Source: Elusimicrobiota bacterium (GTDB taxonomy: Bacteria; Elusimicrobiota; UBA8919). From it: a stretch of DNA of 64,000 bases. How positions within the stretch are numbered: position 1 is the first letter of the stretch; the number at the start of each line of letters is the position of its first letter. The notes beneath the pieces are model-generated. The model was not told where the DNA came from, did no database searches, and saw nothing but the letters and a program-made list of their open reading frames with translations. Positions 3,523-28,181 of the stretch are shown here, piece after piece. Made by a program: the position numbers and the translations under genes. The DNA lies in assembly GCA_028718185.1 (NCBI GenBank), contig JAQUMH010000001.1, forward strand, positions 901,186 through 965,185, in the 5' to 3' direction.

Positions 3523-3562
3523 GTGCGATGGTGCTATGGTGCGATTGTGCGATAGTGAACTT
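3523..3562. repeat. Degenerate 8-bp tandem repeat
   Basis: Five consecutive 8-bp units (GTGCGATG, GTGCTATG, GTGCGATT, GTGCGATA, GTGAACTT) lie in the 160-bp gap between two genes. One of several short-period degenerate arrays at gene junctions in this window. Confidence 0.75.
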
Positions 3563-3638
3563 TTGCACTTATGTTCTTATGTTTTCTAATTTTTAATCTT
3601 AAATCTTAGATTTTAGATCTTTCTTTTCTCTCTATTTT

Positions 3639-4724
3639 TTATCTATATGGCTCAACTTTTTTTATAAGTGTTTCTAATTCTTTTTCGTCGTTGAATTCAG
3701 CATGAATATACATTCCTTTCCCGCCTACTGCATCAAGCAGTGGAATTACTTCTTCAGGTTTGATTCTTATTACTTGAACTGATTTTCCTGCATCAAGTAT
3801 TTTTCTGTAAAGACTATACCACTCTTTATTGCCGCCTGAAGGTATGGTAGGGTCGGGTGTCCACTCAATCGCATCAAGTCCTTTTATAGAAAGCAAACTA
3901 TCAAGATGAGCAAGACACTGGTGACCGTCAAGGTGGAACATGGAATAATCCAGCCAGTCACACTGCCTGCTTAAAGCAGGAACAACAAACTGCTCAAACA
4001 TGGCTGGTGAAAACATAGCGGATGCATCACACTGCACTTTTGCTGTTTTGCCGGGTCCCCAAACATAAAATGCTGTAAAAGCACTACTACCGTCTTCGAG
4101 TTTTATAATGTCGTATATCCGGCTGTATGCATCAAACCAAACCTGATTAATCTCATCCAATTTCTGTTTTACCCAGTCCGGTCGTTCAACCATATCCATA
4201 AGCAGTGTTTCGGTACCGCGTAAAGAAGCAAGGATATCTATGTTTTCAATAAGGTCAGGACAACCTACAATGTATTTATTATTTGAAAGTTTTACAGATT
4301 CTTTTAGTAATGCTTCGGTTATTTTCCACCATTTGTTTTCAGGATTAAACTTTAACGCCGGTCTGTTTTCCGGGTTTTCGTCATCTTTCATAACGGGATT
4401 AAACCATATAGTATCTTTAGAAAAACCTGGTTCCGAACCAAGAAAAAGGGCAAGAGAACCCGGTCCCAAATCAAGAAATGCAATGGGAATAATATCTCCC
4501 TTAAAGCTCCGTTTTGACATAGAATAATGATTTTTCTTAGACCTGAATTCAGGATTAATAAAAGACTCTTCTATTGATTTAACTTTGCCCGGGTTTGGCA
4601 CAATTTCATGCGGGTTAGCAGCATAGGGTGCGCCCCATGTTCCCAATATAAATCCTTTCTGGTTCCACCAATCTGTAAAATGCTTTTTCGTTTCCTGCCA
4701 ATTTTGTTTCCACAAACATTCCAT
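3639..4724 (-). CDS. Uroporphyrinogen decarboxylase (URO-D)-like family protein
   Basis: A 361-aa cytosolic protein resembling the URO-D / corrinoid methyltransferase (MtaA/CmuA) TIM-barrel superfamily: a FLDLGPGSLALFLGSEPGF segment, the strand SMFHLDGHQCLAHLDSLL and the terminal barrel motif MYIHAEFNDEKELETLIKKV. True HemE is unlikely, since no other haem genes are nearby and such paralogues are common in sugar-catabolism clusters of uncultured bacteria. It starts 21 bp after the stop of the upstream gene, so the two are probably co-transcribed. Substrate and reaction are unknown. Confidence 0.7.
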   Translation of the reverse strand: MECLWKQNWQETKKHFTDWWNQKGFILGTWGAPYAANPHEIVPNPGKVKSIEESFINPEFRSKKNHYSMSKRSFKGDIIPIAFLDLGPGSLALFLGSEPGFSKDTIWFNPVMKDDENPENRPALKFNPENKWWKITEALLKESVKLSNNKYIVGCPDLIENIDILASLRGTETLLMDMVERPDWVKQKLDEINQVWFDAYSRIYDIIKLEDGSSAFTAFYVWGPGKTAKVQCDASAMFSPAMFEQFVVPALSRQCDWLDYSMFHLDGHQCLAHLDSLLSIKGLDAIEWTPDPTIPSGGNKEWYSLYRKILDAGKSVQVIRIKPEEVIPLLDAVGGKGMYIHAEFNDEKELETLIKKVEPYR

Positions 4725-19859: not shown

Positions 19860-22169
19860 CTACGATTTCTGAATAATATACCCTTTTATTACATCTTCTT
19901 CGCTGACTTTAATATACCGCTTTTCTTTGCCTATGGATACCGTGTAATTTTCTTTCGTCCTAACCTGATGTTTAGCACCATATGTTGAATAAGGAAATGT
20001 TAGTTCAAAATTACCCATGCTGTCACTTTTAGTTTTATATGTATAAACGAATTCTCTATCAATATTGGTAATTACAGGAATACTGATTTTAATTTCTGTA
20101 TTTGAAGTTGTATTACCATAATAACAAGCCCCTTTAACATATTCAAAGACTTTCTCCCTGGCGGTTCTAACATTGATACCGGAACATGGAAACTCTATAT
20201 ATTCCGCTGTTTCAAAAAGAAGCCGATAATGTCTTAATTCTTCAATTCCCATACCAAGAAAACTACTATAAGACCCATCAAACAAATGAAGCCTTATAGT
20301 TAAATAAGATGAAAATTCCTCATTAGAAATATTTAATTGATATCCCTTGGGAGTAAGAATACTATCCTTTACCAAAGAGTGATTATCCATTTCTCTCAAC
20401 CATTTAAGCACCATTGTCGGATCGGAAGTTATGCAGTAACGAAAGTTGTTTTCTTCCATAATTTTATTTGCTTCTTTTTCGTTCCGGGCAAGATAAAATT
20501 TTATCATTTTTTCAATACCCTGACCGTAGGGATTTACCGCAGCCGGTCTCTCTGAAACATATTCTATAAAATGACCCCATGACCAGAGACACATAATACC
20601 ATATTCCGGTTTTTTTACCGGGTTATTATAGAACGAAGTTACCGGAGTATTATCTTTTATCCAGCTAAGAAGCTCATATTCACTTGGAGAAAGCGTTGGT
20701 CTTTCAGACACAATTTTATTTTTCAGCAATTTTGAGTTGCTATAAAGCAAAATAAGAATTACAACATAAGATATATGTTTGGGTTTGAGAAATGGGGCTA
20801 AACTTATTTTTCTTTTTTCCAATTCTTCATAAAGAAGGTAAAATGTATATGCCGAAAACAAAGAAACACAGGCACCGAAATTATATGAATACCGGATTAC
20901 TTTAAAAGCTATAATTCCAAACGTTACTGTCCAAATCATAACAAAAATACTAACAGGATAATCCTTTTCTCTTTTAATTGTCACAATAGTAAAAACAAAC
21001 AGTCCTACCGGCATAATGAAAAATCCCCAAGTAAGCATTTCAATTACAGTGTAAAGATTAAATTTGCCATTAACATACAGAAGTGGTTTATTTTCGGAAA
21101 TAATTTCAAGCCATTCCGGCGAATAAGCACCTCTTTTGGCAAGAAAATTTAATCCTTCGATAAATTGATTCTTTATTTCAGGAAAGAATAGGGAACATAA
21201 AACAATAAATATGCAGTAAACTATAGTCACACCAAACAACAAATGGATATTTTTCAATTTTGAGAAAATCTTAATTTTAAAACTTATGAATGCAATTAAA
21301 AAGAAGGTAATTGAAAATATTAATAAATAAATCTGGAACAACGAAAGTGCTTTAAAACTGACCATTCCCTGTCTCCCCCACCAGGAAGTAAGGCAGGGAT
21401 AAAGCAGAAAAATCAGTGTCGACATAAGAACCGCAAAATACGCTTTCAAATGTTTAAGAATTTCGCTTCCTGACACTGTGTAAAGTGATAAATACATTGT
21501 CAAAAGTACCGATCCCAAGTATATTGTTGCTCCTGTCCAAACCGTGTAAGAAAACCAGATACCGGCACCCGTAAGAACCGACCAGAGATAGAACCGGCGG
21601 GATGATGAGAATTTTGTAATTAATGATAATTCAAGAGATTTGAGAAGTTTAATAAAAAACCAATACATCAAAAGAGTAGAAAATGTTTCGGCAACATGGT
21701 GATCGACTCTTCCTAACTTGCTATAAAAAATATGAACCGGTTGTAATGCCATAAATAAAGCAGCTAATATCCCGCAGGTATTATTGAAAAGTATTTTTCC
21801 TATCATCCAGACAAGGATAATACTTGCCGCACCAACAAGCGGAGGAAAATAACAGGCTATTCTTTCAGCAAGTTCTTTTGCAGGTTTACCTAAACTCAAA
21901 ATCCAAACAAAAGCGGCAGTCATCTTATCAAAACCATCTGGCCAGATACTGACATTACCTTCAGGATAATTAAGATAATAATCAAATTTAACCATATTAA
22001 AATTGTTTTGAAGCATATTCATTATTCTACGCATGTGATAATAGGAATCGGGATCATAAAATATTACTTTTCCTTTATAAAAAGTAGCACTAATAAATGG
22101 AATTACCCGCACAGCAAAAGCAAGTAAAAATATTCCTAATATTATCAAAACCAATTTTTTATTTTTCAT
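19860..22169 (-). CDS. STT3/PglB-type oligosaccharyltransferase
   Basis: 769-aa polytopic membrane protein. All main STT3 motifs can be placed: DPDSYYH in the first external loop (D39, D41), RVDHHVAE (155-161), SEN with E359 in the position of the EL5 glutamate, an arginine in AFKVIRYSY (R426), and WSWGHFIEY (529-537) in place of WWDYG. The ~240-aa C-terminal domain is extracytoplasmic. STT3 enzymes transfer lipid-linked glycan to asparagine in N-x-S/T sequons, here predicted at the periplasmic face. Single gene with no adjacent pgl genes, so the glycan donor is unknown. Confidence 0.82.
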   Translation of the reverse strand: MKNKKLVLIILGIFLLAFAVRVIPFISATFYKGKVIFYDPDSYYHMRRIMNMLQNNFNMVKFDYYLNYPEGNVSIWPDGFDKMTAAFVWILSLGKPAKELAERIACYFPPLVGAASIILVWMIGKILFNNTCGILAALFMALQPVHIFYSKLGRVDHHVAETFSTLLMYWFFIKLLKSLELSLITKFSSSRRFYLWSVLTGAGIWFSYTVWTGATIYLGSVLLTMYLSLYTVSGSEILKHLKAYFAVLMSTLIFLLYPCLTSWWGRQGMVSFKALSLFQIYLLIFSITFFLIAFISFKIKIFSKLKNIHLLFGVTIVYCIFIVLCSLFFPEIKNQFIEGLNFLAKRGAYSPEWLEIISENKPLLYVNGKFNLYTVIEMLTWGFFIMPVGLFVFTIVTIKREKDYPVSIFVMIWTVTFGIIAFKVIRYSYNFGACVSLFSAYTFYLLYEELEKRKISLAPFLKPKHISYVVILILLYSNSKLLKNKIVSERPTLSPSEYELLSWIKDNTPVTSFYNNPVKKPEYGIMCLWSWGHFIEYVSERPAAVNPYGQGIEKMIKFYLARNEKEANKIMEENNFRYCITSDPTMVLKWLREMDNHSLVKDSILTPKGYQLNISNEEFSSYLTIRLHLFDGSYSSFLGMGIEELRHYRLLFETAEYIEFPCSGINVRTAREKVFEYVKGACYYGNTTSNTEIKISIPVITNIDREFVYTYKTKSDSMGNFELTFPYSTYGAKHQVRTKENYTVSIGKEKRYIKVSEEDVIKGYIIQKS

Positions 22170-22310: not shown

Positions 22311-23213
22311 CTATTTTCTCACTAAAAAATAATATAAAAGGGGTAACATAATTTCATGGTGTCCGATAAAATAAAAACCGGTGCCACCGGTAGGCCTTGA
22401 AACAATATTTTCTGCTGCACGATACTGGTAGTTCATATCAAAATTTGCAGCTGTAAAATTTTTTACTTTGCAGCCAAGATTCCTGGAAAGGTTTAATGCT
22501 TTAAGAAAAACTTCGGGAAGTATTACAGCAGAACCGAAATTCAAAACAACACCTCCGTCAAGTTTTGAAATAACTTCTGTAAGTTTTATAAAATCGCCAT
22601 GAGATGTCTTTCCCCAGCTTGCCCCGCTACATTCCGGATGCTGGTAAATTATATCCGTTCCAATAGCTACATGAACCGTTGCCGGAACTTTTAAATTATA
22701 AGCATTGGCAAAAATACTTTCTTTGGAATGTTTTAACTTTTTGCCATTAATCATTTTCCCTATTATTTCGCCTAATCCAATATTTTTTTCAGCACCGGTT
22801 TCTACTGCTTCGTTAATATATTTTCCTGTCTCGTATGCCATACCGAATCTGCCATTTTTTAATTGTTCCGCAACATCTTCCGATGTTTTCCCGCAATATG
22901 CAAGCTCAAAATCGTGGATAACTGAAGCCCCGTTTGTGGCAATTGCTGTGATAATGTTTTTTTTCATTAACTCAACTATCAGACCGGAAAGCCCGCATTT
23001 TATTATATGTGCTCCAAACATAAAAATTACAGGTTTTTTATTTTTCCTTGCAATAATAATTTGTTCAACAAGTCTTTTTAAATTCTTTCCGGCTAAAATA
23101 TCCGGAATTAATCCTAATAAATCTTTTTTGTCTGGATTGGAAAACGAACTTATGCTGACTTTACTTGCTCTTTTACCCAAAGAGTATCTTTTAACTTTTT
23201 TAATGTCTATCAT
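22311..23213 (-). CDS. Deoxyhypusine synthase-like protein
   Basis: Start chosen at the ATG at 23213, preceded by GGAGG; a GTG four codons earlier overlaps that RBS. 300 aa. IATNGASVIHDFELA resembles the NAD-binding region of deoxyhypusine synthase, and ASWGK (K202) matches the SWGK segment that carries the catalytic lysine in the eukaryotic enzyme. Bacterial members may act on polyamines (homospermidine synthase-like) rather than on an eIF5A lysine. Last gene of the LPS operon; function there unknown. Confidence 0.6.
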   Translation of the reverse strand: MIDIKKVKRYSLGKRASKVSISSFSNPDKKDLLGLIPDILAGKNLKRLVEQIIIARKNKKPVIFMFGAHIIKCGLSGLIVELMKKNIITAIATNGASVIHDFELAYCGKTSEDVAEQLKNGRFGMAYETGKYINEAVETGAEKNIGLGEIIGKMINGKKLKHSKESIFANAYNLKVPATVHVAIGTDIIYQHPECSGASWGKTSHGDFIKLTEVISKLDGGVVLNFGSAVILPEVFLKALNLSRNLGCKVKNFTAANFDMNYQYRAAENIVSRPTGGTGFYFIGHHEIMLPLLYYFLVRK

Positions 23214-23227
23214 TTTATCCTCCACAA

Positions 23228-24004
23228 TTAGTGTGTATCCACCGGCATTTCCCTTAATTCTGCGACAATTGAACCAACAGAAATTTCAGATTTCATCTTA
23301 ACGGGTATGTGTTTTTCATCATCAGTGAGCCATATTTTTATTTCTCCCTTTTGCCTGAAAATCCCGGCATCCTGAAGGTTCGGCTTCACCACAATTGTTT
23401 TATATTTTTTACCGTTAACTTTTACAGTTTTTTTATCACATATCTTTATTACCATTTTATAATTTTTCTTGCGAGAGTTTACATTCGCCGTTAAAATCTC
23501 ACTTTGTTTTAATTCTTGAAGCCTAACCCAGTAAAACGCACCTAAAACATCTAAAACGTTTTCCGGAATACTAAAACTTTCACCTTTGTTGTTTACTGCT
23601 AAATGTTTCTGCTGGTCGTATTCTGTTCTTCTATTGAACTTATGTTTGCCTTCATTTATATTCTGTTCAAAAACAAGTGAGTAAAAATTTTCAACATCAA
23701 TCCGTGATTCATTTGTATCACGAACTTTACAGAAAGTATCAAAAAATGGTGCAGATTTCGCTTCCGAGTAAATATGGTATGCTTTTCTACCATTATAATC
23801 TTCTATACCTTTTATTTCAAGAGTCCCATAACCAACTTTTATGAATTTCCAATAAACATCAAAAACAAGTTTTTCAGCATTTGGAAGCTTTTTTGTTTCT
23901 GCAAATGCAAATTGCTGCAAACTTCCCTGATTAACAATAATCCAGGAAAGTAGAAAAAATAATTTAACTTTGTTTAATAATCCATTCCGCCGCATCTGAA
24001 ACAT
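23228..24004 (-). CDS. DUF3108 periplasmic protein
   Basis: 258 aa with a signal peptide (LFFLLSWIIVNQGSLQQFAFA). The mature part carries the DUF3108 pattern: EKLVFDVYWKFIKVGYGTL, then AYHIYSEAKSAPFFDTF and NRRTEYD, and a C-terminal beta-rich region with IKIWLTDDEKHIPVKMK. The fold is LolA-like by family knowledge; role in LPS or lipid handling is inferred. The start overlaps the upstream fusion gene by about 40 bp and is uncertain; the ATG at 23995 is an alternative. Confidence 0.75.
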   Translation of the reverse strand: MFQMRRNGLLNKVKLFFLLSWIIVNQGSLQQFAFAETKKLPNAEKLVFDVYWKFIKVGYGTLEIKGIEDYNGRKAYHIYSEAKSAPFFDTFCKVRDTNESRIDVENFYSLVFEQNINEGKHKFNRRTEYDQQKHLAVNNKGESFSIPENVLDVLGAFYWVRLQELKQSEILTANVNSRKKNYKMVIKICDKKTVKVNGKKYKTIVVKPNLQDAGIFRQKGEIKIWLTDDEKHIPVKMKSEISVGSIVAELREMPVDTH

Positions 24005-25643
24005 CCTTTGCTATATAGTCAGCACCCTCAACTTTTTTACAGTCACCTGTTAAAACAAAAATACTTTTAGCGCCTATGTTTTTCGCTAGATTAATATCAG
24101 ACTGTGCGTCGCCGACAACATAAGAGTATTTTAAATCAATATTAAAATCCTTTTTTGCCTGTATAATCATTCCCTTCTCCGGCTTTCTACAAGCACATTT
24201 ATCATCAGGTTTATGCGGACAGAAATATATATAATTTACCAAAGCACCTTTTTCCTTAAGAGTTTCTACTATGGTTTTATTCATCTTGCAAACATCGCTT
24301 CTTTTTGAATATCCTCTCGCAATACCGGATTGATTAGTAACAACAAAATTTTTAAACCCGGCATCATTAAGCAATTTTATGGCAGGAAATGACTTTTCAA
24401 AAACTTTGAGCTTTTTAATATCCGCAGAATAGTGTGTATCTTCAATTATCGTTCCATCCCTATCCAGAAAAACAGCCCGGCTTTTATAAAATGTCAATGC
24501 CATTAAAAACCACATCATCATTTGAATTTCGGAGTCACCATATGAATATTCCGTTATGCCCGACAATAAAAACCCAATAATCCCAAATAAACAAACAATA
24601 AGAAAACTCTTTTCATCATCATTTGTATATATTGCTTTCTTTATCCCATAATAAAAATAAACTCCAAATATATATAAAAAAGCGATTAAACCAATTATAC
24701 CTCTTTCAACAAGTATATGTACAAAATTACTATGTAGATGAGAAAGTAAATAATAATCTTTTGATAAACCTAATTTTTCGTAATATTGCGGGTAAATTCT
24801 TTTTATATTTTTTAAGCCTACTCCCAATAAAGGATAATCTTTGAAAATCTCAAAAGATGTTTTCCACATATTAGTTCGAACCGGATCATTAAGATAAGTT
24901 GCTCTACTGATAATATTCCTGCGTCCTGTTAAATATATTCCGGAAAATATTGATATAATTAAACCAATAACAAAAATATAAACGAGATTTTTTAATTGTT
25001 TCTTTCTAATATATAGTAAAATTGCCAAAATAATCACTGATGAAATCCAAACCATCCGCGCAAAACTAAAAATTATTCCTAAAAATATAAATATAATCAA
25101 AAGATAGGAAATATACTTTCTCTTACCATGTAATAAAGTATATATAGAAATCGGCAATGCCATAAGAAGACCTTCTGCATATGTTAGCGGCCAAGACCGC
25201 GTTCCATGAACACGACCGTCAATCATACCAAAAATATAAGCACCGGAAAAACTTTTTCCTGTAACATATTGTATTACACCTAATAATCCCATAATAGAAG
25301 ATGAAATTATAAATACAAATACAATTTTCTTAGCATGTTCATAGTTTTTTATATTAGATGAAACAAGAAAAAATATAAAAAACAACATTTCCGAATTTAA
25401 ACCTGTTAAACTTTTTGTAAAATTAAGTCCAAATATAGATGAAATTACCGTAGAAAAGAAAAATATTAAAATTGGAACTGTCACCGGTGTTGAAATATCT
25501 TCGGATTTTTTTAATATTATCTTTATAATCCAGACCAAAAACAATAAAATCCAGACAATATTTACTGCCGCAATAGATATGGGCATTACAAAAGCAAGAA
25601 CAAAAAGTCCGTAATATAAAGTTAAATCAAGTTTTTTTAGCAA
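23964..25643 (-). CDS. Fusion: O-antigen ligase/polymerase (Wzy_C) + GmhB phosphatase
   Basis: 559 aa in one uninterrupted frame. Residues 1-385 are a polytopic membrane protein of the WaaL/Wzy type, with the conserved periplasmic SHLHSNFVHILVERG (H302, H304) and PLLGVGLKN. Residues 388-559 are a complete GmhB-type HAD phosphatase: FLDRDGTI (D394, D396), VVTNQSG, the zinc segment CPHKPDDKCACRKP and GDAQSDINLA. GmhB makes heptose 1-phosphate for ADP-heptose; the ligase joins glycan to lipid A-core. The TTG start is preceded by GGAGG and overlaps lpxK by 17 bp. Confidence 0.85.
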   Translation of the reverse strand: MLKKLDLTLYYGLFVLAFVMPISIAAVNIVWILLFLVWIIKIILKKSEDISTPVTVPILIFFFSTVISSIFGLNFTKSLTGLNSEMLFFIFFLVSSNIKNYEHAKKIVFVFIISSSIMGLLGVIQYVTGKSFSGAYIFGMIDGRVHGTRSWPLTYAEGLLMALPISIYTLLHGKRKYISYLLIIFIFLGIIFSFARMVWISSVIILAILLYIRKKQLKNLVYIFVIGLIISIFSGIYLTGRRNIISRATYLNDPVRTNMWKTSFEIFKDYPLLGVGLKNIKRIYPQYYEKLGLSKDYYLLSHLHSNFVHILVERGIIGLIAFLYIFGVYFYYGIKKAIYTNDDEKSFLIVCLFGIIGFLLSGITEYSYGDSEIQMMMWFLMALTFYKSRAVFLDRDGTIIEDTHYSADIKKLKVFEKSFPAIKLLNDAGFKNFVVTNQSGIARGYSKRSDVCKMNKTIVETLKEKGALVNYIYFCPHKPDDKCACRKPEKGMIIQAKKDFNIDLKYSYVVGDAQSDINLAKNIGAKSIFVLTGDCKKVEGADYIAKDVSDAAEWIIKQS

Positions 25644-26649
25644 GTGAATCCTCCAAATATTTTTTTATTTCTTTTTTTTCCTGTATTTCAATTTTTACAT
25701 CAAGAATATAATAAGGAAATTCTTCCGGAAGGCGGGTTGCATCTTTTGAAGTTGTAATAACGACTGCCTGAAATTCTGCCGCATTATCATAAAACTTTTT
25801 AATATCTTTACTTTTAAAAAAATAGTGATCGGGATACTTTCTATGATCCAATAGATTCATTCCAATTTCCTTTATTGTACTTTCAAAATCTTCCGGTATC
25901 GCTATACCGGAAATTGCAATAACATTTCTTCCTTTTAGTGATGAAACATCAACATCGCTGCCATTTTTATTAAGAATTCTTTTTTTAAAAAAAGCATGGA
26001 AAATTGGTGATTTGCTGTTGTACTTTCTGATGGTTTCTTCTATGCGCTGAATATTTTCACCGGGAACCTTATCGCATCTTGTTATAATAAAAGCTGAAGC
26101 GCGTGATATATTCTTCAACGGTTCCCTTAAATATCCTGCAGGTAAAAGTCTAAAGTCACCATATGGATTCAGAGCATTCACGCAAACAATGTCAATATCC
26201 CTGTAAAGATTTAAGTGCTGGAATCCATCGTCCAAAATTATTATATCACTATTAAATTTATCAACTGCCAGCAACCCCGCCCTGTGCCTGTCTTTATCAA
26301 CTATTACCGGAACATTTTCAAGTGACCTGGCAATTAGATGAGGTTCATCACCTGCAATTTTAGGACCATAATATATTTTTTTACCGTCAGTAACAATTTT
26401 TGATGTTCCCGTTTTAGTTTTTGATTTATACCCTCTTGAAACCACACTAACGTTTCTCTGTAAATTTTTTAAAAGATTTGCCAAAAAAATTACAGTCGGC
26501 GTCTTTCCTGTTCCTCCGACAGTAATATTACCGACAGATATCACGTTACAGGGTAATTTTTTTTGCTTTGCTTTTTTTATCTTTTGTGAAATATTAAAAA
26601 TTAAAAGATATAAAAAAGAAAACGGATAAAGAATTTTTAATGGTTTCAT
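25627..26649 (-). CDS. lpxK: Tetraacyldisaccharide 4'-kinase
   Basis: 340 aa. It phosphorylates the 4' position of tetraacyldisaccharide 1-phosphate to make lipid IVA at the inner membrane. The hydrophobic N-terminus is followed by the Walker A GGTGKTPT (45-52), the RGYKSK motif, GDEPHLIARS and DDGFQHLNLYRDIDIV, all diagnostic of LpxK. It lies in the middle of the LPS operon and establishes that the cell makes lipid A. Confidence 0.95.
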   Translation of the reverse strand: MKPLKILYPFSFLYLLIFNISQKIKKAKQKKLPCNVISVGNITVGGTGKTPTVIFLANLLKNLQRNVSVVSRGYKSKTKTGTSKIVTDGKKIYYGPKIAGDEPHLIARSLENVPVIVDKDRHRAGLLAVDKFNSDIIILDDGFQHLNLYRDIDIVCVNALNPYGDFRLLPAGYLREPLKNISRASAFIITRCDKVPGENIQRIEETIRKYNSKSPIFHAFFKKRILNKNGSDVDVSSLKGRNVIAISGIAIPEDFESTIKEIGMNLLDHRKYPDHYFFKSKDIKKFYDNAAEFQAVVITTSKDATRLPEEFPYYILDVKIEIQEKKEIKKYLEDSLAKKT

Positions 26650-26699: not shown

Positions 26700-27689
26700 T
26701 TATATCAACATTGTAGTGGCAGAGCTTGCTCTGCCTACATTTTCCAGATTGTTATATAATGACTTATCAAAACAACTAAATAATTTTTCTGCAACTTCAT
26801 CAACAGATAGACTGTCAAGCTGTCCTTGTATATATTTATGAATATTATCGTTTGGATAGGTCCAGCTAACTGGATTAGTTTTTAATCCATAAATTATAAA
26901 TGATGGCGTGTTTTGACTCACTGCAATGTGTGCCGGTGCAGATGAAGTTCCAATATGCAACTTACAACTTTTAATAAGCGCTGCTAAATCAAGGATGTTA
27001 AAATCATCACAGAGCAAGTGTTTCTTTTTACATAATGACATTGCACTTTGGACATAATCAAGTTCTCCGGGTCCCCATATAAAAATAACTTTTGCATTTA
27101 ATTTATCTGCAACTAAATCAGCCAGTTGAGCAAATTTCTCCTTTGACCATTGCCTATATGTACGACGATTGGTTATATCAAAAGTAATTAGAAAATCCTG
27201 ATTAGAAATATTATTTTTATTAAAATAACTTAAAACTTTTTTCTCGTTTTCTGCACCAAAGGATAAATCCAATGCAGTGTTTTCATATTTTATTCCAAAT
27301 GTTTCCAGTATCTGGAGACGGTCAAAAACAGTATAACCCTTGTTAACATACTTTGGCATAATATTATAACACCAAAAACCCCACGGTCTATAAAAAGCAA
27401 CCCGTTTATCGGCTCCCGATAAAAGAGTATAATAACCTGTAATCGCTGAATTCATAAAATCAATTACTATATCAAACTTTCGTTCTTTTATATTTTTTAA
27501 GGTATTTTTATCCAATAAAATTACACCGGAAATATACGGATTATATTTCAAAATTATTTCAGATGATTTTTGAGTTAAAAAGTATATTTTACTTTCCGGT
27601 TTACTTTTCTTTAATGCTCTTATAAGCGGTGTAGTAAGTAATACATCCCCGATTGCTCTTAGAACAATAATCAAAATTTTCTCAGTCAT
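26700..27689 (-). CDS. Glycosyltransferase family 9 (heptosyltransferase-like)
   Basis: 329 aa. GT9 features: the N-terminal ILIIVLRAIGDVLLTTPLIRALKK and the donor-site segment SCKLHIGTSSAPAHIAVSQNTPSFIIYG. It probably adds ADP-heptose or a related sugar to the LPS core. Its ATG overlaps the stop of the DUF4254 fragment. Oddity: the last 13 codons (NVGRASSATTMLI) are encoded by a palindromic repeat, so the natural C-terminus was probably replaced or extended by insertion. Confidence 0.88.
   Translation of the reverse strand: MTEKILIIVLRAIGDVLLTTPLIRALKKSKPESKIYFLTQKSSEIILKYNPYISGVILLDKNTLKNIKERKFDIVIDFMNSAITGYYTLLSGADKRVAFYRPWGFWCYNIMPKYVNKGYTVFDRLQILETFGIKYENTALDLSFGAENEKKVLSYFNKNNISNQDFLITFDITNRRTYRQWSKEKFAQLADLVADKLNAKVIFIWGPGELDYVQSAMSLCKKKHLLCDDFNILDLAALIKSCKLHIGTSSAPAHIAVSQNTPSFIIYGLKTNPVSWTYPNDNIHKYIQGQLDSLSVDEVAEKLFSCFDKSLYNNLENVGRASSATTMLI
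26711..26739. repeat. Palindromic hairpin element inside a coding end
   Basis: TTGTAGTG, GCAGAGC (26719-26725), loop TT, GCTCTGC (26728-26734), CTACA. It is a member of the same hairpin family as those at 9236 and 36539, and it lies within the last codons of the GT9 gene. Confidence 0.75.
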
Positions 27690-27955
27690 TTTTTTACCCG
27701 ATATTTTGGGTCATTATACATTTTGAACTGGCGATATATTTTTAATTTTGTCTTTCCGGATTTTACGTTCTCGAATAAATCGGACAACTCAATTTCAAGA
27801 TCCTTTTTCTGTTTTTGCATAATTTTTATTCTCTGGGCGGCTTCTTTCTTATGCTGATTATCCGCATCAGTGCGTTCTAACTGCCGGTTCATATAAAATA
27901 TCTTCAGCTGAATTATGCTTAATTTATCTACTAAACTTCCTATGGTTTCTGCCAT
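27686..27955 (-). CDS. C-terminal half of a split DUF4254 protein
   Basis: 89 aa: [20 protein letters not shown] followed by a helical stretch and [14 protein letters not shown], matching the second half of DUF4254 proteins, which usually accompany GT9 genes. An AAGGAG lies before this ATG, inside the upstream frame, so separate translation is plausible. Otherwise it is one gene broken by a frameshift. Confidence 0.7.
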
Positions 27956-28181
27956 TATTTAATCTCCTTAAAACTACTTCATCTATTCTTTCAATAAGGT
28001 CATTCCGCTTCTGGTTAAATTTATCAATGTTTCTTTTCGCCTTAAATACTGTTTGTACATCGGGCAAACGGGCTTTATCTTCTTCATGCCACAGAAATAT
28101 ATTGACTTCCGAAAGTTCGCTTACTAATTTTCCCAAATTAGCATCTACTGAAAAAATACTTTTTTTACTATTTCTTTTCAT
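27924..28181 (-). CDS. N-terminal half of a split DUF4254 protein
   Basis: 85 aa with [14 protein letters not shown] and [19 protein letters not shown], matching the first half of DUF4254. The frame ends shortly after the second half has begun in another frame; the two overlap by 32 bp. AAAGGAG precedes the ATG, and the start overlaps the GT2 stop by 14 bp. Together the halves approach the usual family length (about 200 aa by memory). Confidence 0.7.

Follow-up and report, generated by a model that had tools for sequence, protein, structure and literature searches.

A WaaL-like O-antigen ligase fused to a GmhB-like phosphatase is conserved within one order of Elusimicrobiota

A single gene in an Elusimicrobiota genome encodes an O-antigen ligase-like protein and a GmhB-like phosphatase in one reading frame, and this fusion is genuine and conserved within one order of uncultured members of the phylum. 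The gene was found in a stretch of 64,000 nucleotides of contig JAQUMH010000001.1 (GCA_028718185.1), here called the window, where it occupies positions 23964..25643 on the minus strand. As the first-pass annotation of the window had claimed, ligase and phosphatase form one frame: the open reading frame runs for 559 amino acids without a stop codon, from a TTG start codon with a GGAGG ribosome-binding site 6 bases upstream (25650..25654, minus strand). Pfam places a Wzy_C domain (PF04932; 75.9 bits against a cut-off of 31.7) at residues 182-323 and HAD families at residues 393-551, and NCBIfam places TIGR01656, a HAD-IIIA domain of the histidinol-phosphatase type, at residues 390-530 (142 bits, cut-off 84). 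According to the predicted structure, which was built with 8 sequences and has a middling mean pLDDT of 69, the product is two whole proteins placed end to end, with the WaaL fold followed by the GmhB fold.

The search for the same two-domain architecture covered 60 relatives and then 294 genomes drawn from the phylum, of which 28 had no match at the threshold. The order is represented by nine genomes, namely the one containing the window, seven of the same family and one of another family. All nine encode the full-length fusion without internal stop codons, at 51-65% identity to the window protein, and all keep the TTG start with GGAG or a longer motif upstream. Separate ligase and gmhB genes, which had been named as a reason to doubt the fusion if present in close relatives, were seen only in other families. 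Beyond the order, the matches listed contain essentially the GmhB part alone or the ligase part alone. Seven of the order loci are also present in named MAG contigs from several projects, all titled Elusimicrobia bacterium. They were recovered by a scan of genome contigs with the order alignment and two ligase-end patterns, which reaches close relatives only and gave 7 loci, all from Elusimicrobia; a scan with the window protein alone found no fusion locus. Matches were obtained in 7 phage and 224 plasmid records, but no record aligns with 80% of the query at a single site, in a sample where other phyla are thinly represented, and the three loci on viral contigs contain the GmhB part only. Among the papers listed in literature searches, judged by titles and the beginnings of abstracts, no account of such a fusion was found.

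The ligase module comprises residues 1-387 (24483..25643, minus strand). The model of residues 3-387 matches the WaaL cryo-EM chain 7tpg_B (Z 23.0, 353 residues, rmsd 5.3, about 14% identity), which is also found by profile comparison (E 6.9e-5), and by this match of the predicted model the 12-helix WaaL fold extends over the whole chain; hydropathy alone gave 10, 10 and 12 helices in three members. The resemblance to WaaL (7TPG/7TPJ) thus covers the fold and the arginine and histidine of the active loop, whereas the WaaL chain has no phosphatase match. Both termini of WaaL are cytosolic. The hydropathy profile contains a long hydrophilic loop at residues 239-309 (24717..24929, minus strand), which would be periplasmic by analogy with WaaL. 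It holds R256 and H304, which the ligase-half profile aligns with R265 and H313 of WaaL and which are invariant in all nine proteins. The PF04932 family also takes in polymerases and protein O-glycosyltransferases, and the acceptor can therefore only be named as putative; from the lpxK operon context, lipid A-core is the candidate. According to PMC10920833, R265 of WaaL is the second of two arginines that bind undecaprenyl diphosphate, and H313 activates the acceptor; the first such arginine is R191. R196 of the fused protein, which may correspond to R191, is also invariant (9/9) and lies outside the stretch aligned with WaaL.

The two halves meet at residues 381-390 (24474..24503, minus strand), where the sequence of the window protein is MALTFYKSRAVFLDRDGT. 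A join precisely at the end of the last membrane helix had been proposed, and this agrees with the DSSP assignment of the predicted model, in which residue 384 is the last of the helix and residue 388 (S388, codon 24480-24482) opens the first HAD strand, leaving a linker of about three residues. No frameshift was found at the junction. Among the orthologues of the order, the codons near the junction vary synonymously and the residues are kept, as expected of a translated join. The mean pairwise identity of the junction is 80%, as compared to 59% and 64% for the two halves, although one pair reaches only 27% there. In G008, the most distant member, the junction differs and reads LIAGIMFHKKKAVF, which argues that the exact residues are not essential.

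The GmhB-like module comprises residues 388-559 (23967..24482, minus strand), and the model matches E. coli GmhB (2gmw_B) over residues 387-559 (Z 23.8, 172 residues, rmsd 2.1). The earlier statement that the catalytic and zinc residues of GmhB are intact was borne out by the alignment, in which twelve motif residues are invariant in the nine proteins: D394, D396, T398, S439, R443, C475, H477, C483, C485, K487, D512 and D516. The DRD motif (24456..24464, minus strand), aligned with that of E. coli GmhB, contains D394 and D396, which we take to be the HAD catalytic aspartates, and C475-x-H477 and C483-x-C485 (24189..24221, minus strand) presumably form the Cys3His zinc site. One member (G001) has DRDD in place of DRDG. 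The whole HAD fold and the catalytic and zinc residues are thus shared with E. coli GmhB (2GMW, 3L8E), which differs in being a free protein and in having a zinc loop that is seven residues longer. The specific GmhB models match at residues 387-558 but remain under their own cut-offs (NF006506, 159.8 versus 178; TIGR00213, 120.6 versus 149.6; NF050049, 117.9 versus 250), and for this reason we call the domain GmhB-like. Besides WaaL and GmhB, the matches listed in the fold search are mostly other HAD-fold proteins, together with one FtsWIQLB chain.

A free GmhB gene had been suggested as a check, and no second convincing GmhB was found in the nine genomes of the order, as judged by TIGR01656 in the genome containing the window and by a search with the GmhB part in all nine. 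The former genome has one TIGR01656 match over the cut-off and two further weak matches of 24.4 and 23.8 bits, and the search over the nine genomes gave one further match to the GmhB part, of 19 bits, in G001. HldA is over the cut-off in every genome. GmhA-like and HldC proteins are matched in all nine, over the cut-off in none and in six genomes, respectively. The HldD epimerase exceeds the cut-off in one genome, and weaker SDR matches occur in all nine. In four genomes (G001, G002, G004 and G005), hldA is located 1.7-2.0 kb from the fusion. Since GmhA-like, HldA and HldC proteins are present and no further convincing GmhB was found, the sequence data suggest that the fused domain is likely the phosphatase of the beta-heptose route. 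The genome containing the window also has a second cluster outside it (G000:C3:207162-211094) with gmhA-like, SDR-like and HldE-like genes, the last with its nucleotidyltransferase domain preceding the kinase domain, which possibly serves another sugar-nucleotide route.

The fused gene is flanked by lpxK (25627..26649, minus strand; PF02606 and TIGR00682 over cut-off), with which it overlaps by 17 bases, and by a gene for a DUF3108 protein with a signal-like N-terminus (23228..24004, minus strand; PF11306), which overlaps its end by 41 bases. The cluster also contains a GT9 heptosyltransferase-like gene (26700..27689, minus strand; PF01075) and other glycosyltransferase genes.

To learn about the origin of the fusion, we compared 60 fetched regions, one of which (L141) is a 100-base placeholder. 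Among the other 59, all except L128 hold gmhB, and these 58 consist of eight fusions, to which the window adds a ninth, and 50 regions from outside the order. The survey is not random, as L047-L059 and L133 were chosen for long-looking GmhB frames and GmhB-DUF3108 fusions are over-represented. An unfused ligase gene is located directly upstream of gmhB in nine of the 50 genomes: G045 and G022 (f3), G157 and G060 (f14), G068, G169 and G251 (f16), G123 (f22) and G269 (f27). In each of these pairs, gmhB is in a different frame from the ligase. The distance from the ligase stop to the DRD codon is 13-76 bases, and if gmhB is taken to begin at the closest start codon upstream, the two genes overlap in six (G045, G022, G068, G169, G157 and G269). 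The end of the ligase in G068, GLTESWIGDKEVAMIFWALLG, is similar to that of the fused ligase, GITEYSYGDSEIQMMMWFLMA. An unfused ligase gene directly 5' of gmhB is thus a plausible pre-fusion state.

The phylogeny of the ligases (28 rows) was built from matches longer than 250 residues, which left out G269 and G036; two of its branches are flagged as long and five rows as compositionally odd. All fused ligases fall into a single clade (100/100), which joins, with modest support (88/85), the ligases of f14, f16 and f22 and two ligases from f8 and f26 that are not neighbours of gmhB. The ligases of the f3 neighbours are placed elsewhere, so that ligase and gmhB may have become neighbours on more than one occasion. 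The fused proteins are also one clade (100/98) in the GmhB phylogeny (59 rows), where their nearest relatives lack clear support and the clade is not placed beside the rows from f14, f16 or f22. The simplest reading is one fusion event from adjacent, perhaps overlapping, genes, by a mutation whose exact form we can only infer.

We consider it probable that the protein is a bifunctional membrane-spanning enzyme of lipopolysaccharide (LPS) synthesis that arose once from adjacent or overlapping genes, with activities, topology, substrate and fusing mutation as we infer them here. The compartments of both halves would be those of the known families. The N-terminal 387 residues would be a WaaL-type ligase with its active loop facing the periplasm, most likely with lipid A-core as the acceptor of a glycan carried on undecaprenyl diphosphate. 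The 172 residues at the C-terminus would extend from the last helix into the cytosol and dephosphorylate heptose 1,7-bisphosphate at position 7, as a step of ADP-heptose synthesis. The fusion would have arisen once, in or before the ancestor of the order. Its probable source is a ligase gene and a gmhB gene that were adjacent or overlapped within an lpxK operon and whose frames would have been united by an indel. The benefit of the fusion would most likely lie in co-expression at a fixed ratio and in tethering GmhB near other membrane enzymes of LPS synthesis; since the steps catalysed are distant, direct channelling from one site to the other is improbable.

An unlikely alternative is that the two enzymes, although genuinely fused in the gene, function separately, with GmhB also made from an internal start or released by cleavage after synthesis and the join a neutral relic of overlapping genes, such as those seen in the unfused neighbours of other families. 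An in-frame ATG is indeed present 13 codons before the DRD motif in eight of the nine genes, but in none of the eight is it preceded by a ribosome-binding match longer than 3 bases, in contrast to the GGAG or longer motif at the true start in all nine. G008 lacks this ATG and has one of its own 10 codons before the motif, with no ribosome-binding match. A further ATG 19 codons before the motif has a weak 5-base match at long spacing (GGTGA, spacing 13) in four of the nine. However, the junction is on average more conserved than either half, the lowest pair aside, which argues against a neutral relic.

It is quite improbable that one half is a non-catalytic partner, for example with GmhB sensing the heptose supply to gate the ligase. 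The scores below the GmhB model cut-offs and the DRDD motif in G001 would be consistent with a loss of catalysis, but they have to be set against the invariance of the motif residues and against the gene content of the nine genomes, in which the other heptose enzymes are present and a further convincing GmhB was not found. As for an assembly or sequencing artefact, the seven named relatives are MAGs, but the same join in nine genomes, seven of them also represented by named contigs from several projects, contradicts this explanation and leaves it practically no probability. The bifunctional membrane-spanning enzyme therefore remains our preferred reading.

GmhB is also found in frame with the downstream DUF3108 gene in seven of the 50 regions outside the order (L047, L051, L052, L053, L054, L055 and L133), which belong to G009, G074, G100 and G118 (f3), G065 (f12), and G087 and G261 (f20). 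In the six that were inspected, all but G118, there is a hydrophobic stretch between GmhB and DUF3108, which is weak in G087 and G261. On the GmhB phylogeny, this state requires five changes, gains or losses, at least four of which are forced by well-supported branches, making more than one event likely; the GmhB-DUF3108 fusion thus probably arose more than once. Long GmhB frames in G266, G246, G203, G287, G276, G248 and G269 were taken as chance open frames, since 13 window-protein queries and the ligase model gave no match in the same frame.

Among the adjacent gene pairs in the 58 regions, shared frames were observed only for ligase and GmhB (8/17, all eight representing one event) and for GmhB and DUF3108 (7/29). 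None was found for LpxK and GmhB (0/33), GT2 and LpxK (0/16), DUF3108 and the deoxyhypusine-synthase-like gene DHS (0/12), LpxK and the ligase (0/10) or other pairs in these regions. The GmhB-DUF3108 rate is inflated by the choice of long GmhB frames, a choice that would also have revealed LpxK-GmhB fusions. This pattern is no more than suggestive of selection for GmhB to sit at the membrane. That the inner membrane has repeatedly drawn in GmhB among these bacteria, through the ligase C-terminus on one occasion and probably more than once through a signal-anchor-like segment of the exported DUF3108 protein, is a tentative idea that we would not count on. If true, the usually soluble ADP-heptose route would run at the membrane in a complex with LpxK, the heptosyltransferases and the ligase, linking the supply of core sugars to the attachment of O-antigen.

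The closest known system is WadA of Brucella and Mesorhizobium, in which a GT25 domain is combined with a GT121 O-antigen ligase. The authors of the 2023 report on the Brucella protein present WadA, to their knowledge, as the first bifunctional O-antigen ligase, and they make the same claim with regard to bifunctional membrane-spanning enzymes that have a catalytic site on each face (PMC9938171). Both systems join an O-antigen ligase module to a cytosolic enzyme of the LPS core, with catalytic sites on either side of the inner membrane, as described in the WadA and WaaL reports (PMC9938171, PMC10920833) and as predicted here. WadA carries its cytosolic domain, a glycosyltransferase responsible for the final core sugar, at the N-terminus, whereas the partner in the fused protein is C-terminal and, to judge from its sequence, would be expected to use a soluble sugar phosphate as its substrate, several steps before that point. 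Pfam, NCBIfam and the fold search gave no match to a GT25 glycosyltransferase domain in the fused protein, and the ligase begins at the N-terminus; lacking a glycosyltransferase domain, the protein is not a WadA. It is a candidate for a second design of two-sided O-antigen ligase, with another partner and in reversed order, for which plausible precursor gene arrangements are still visible in related families. The fusion offers a test of spatial coupling between the supply of LPS core sugars and O-antigen ligation.

Several other genes in the vicinity deserve mention. Next to the DUF3108 gene, positions 22311-23225 (minus strand) encode a member of the GSU2086 family (403.6 bits), which resembles deoxyhypusine synthase, and in 12 of the 58 regions with gmhB such a gene adjoins DUF3108. 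Positions 19860-22169 (minus strand) encode a 769-residue STT3/AglB-like oligosaccharyltransferase with an archaeal AglB_L1 domain in a bacterial host, to which there was no match in the 59 surveyed regions. In G003, lpxK is split into two overlapping frames (L081:4318-4569 and 3554-4324), reflecting a frameshift that is either genuine or an assembly error. DUF4254 is encoded in the window by two overlapping half-genes (27686-27955 and 27924-28181, minus strand) that correspond to profile positions 3-63 and 73-143, the second half-gene having its own AAGGAGA motif and ATG. The halves are in separate frames in all eight other regions that have the N-terminal half (L048, L049, L080, L081, L082, L127, L129 and L140), which span families f1, f2, f6, f13 and f22, and DUF4254 is therefore a conserved split gene rather than an error.
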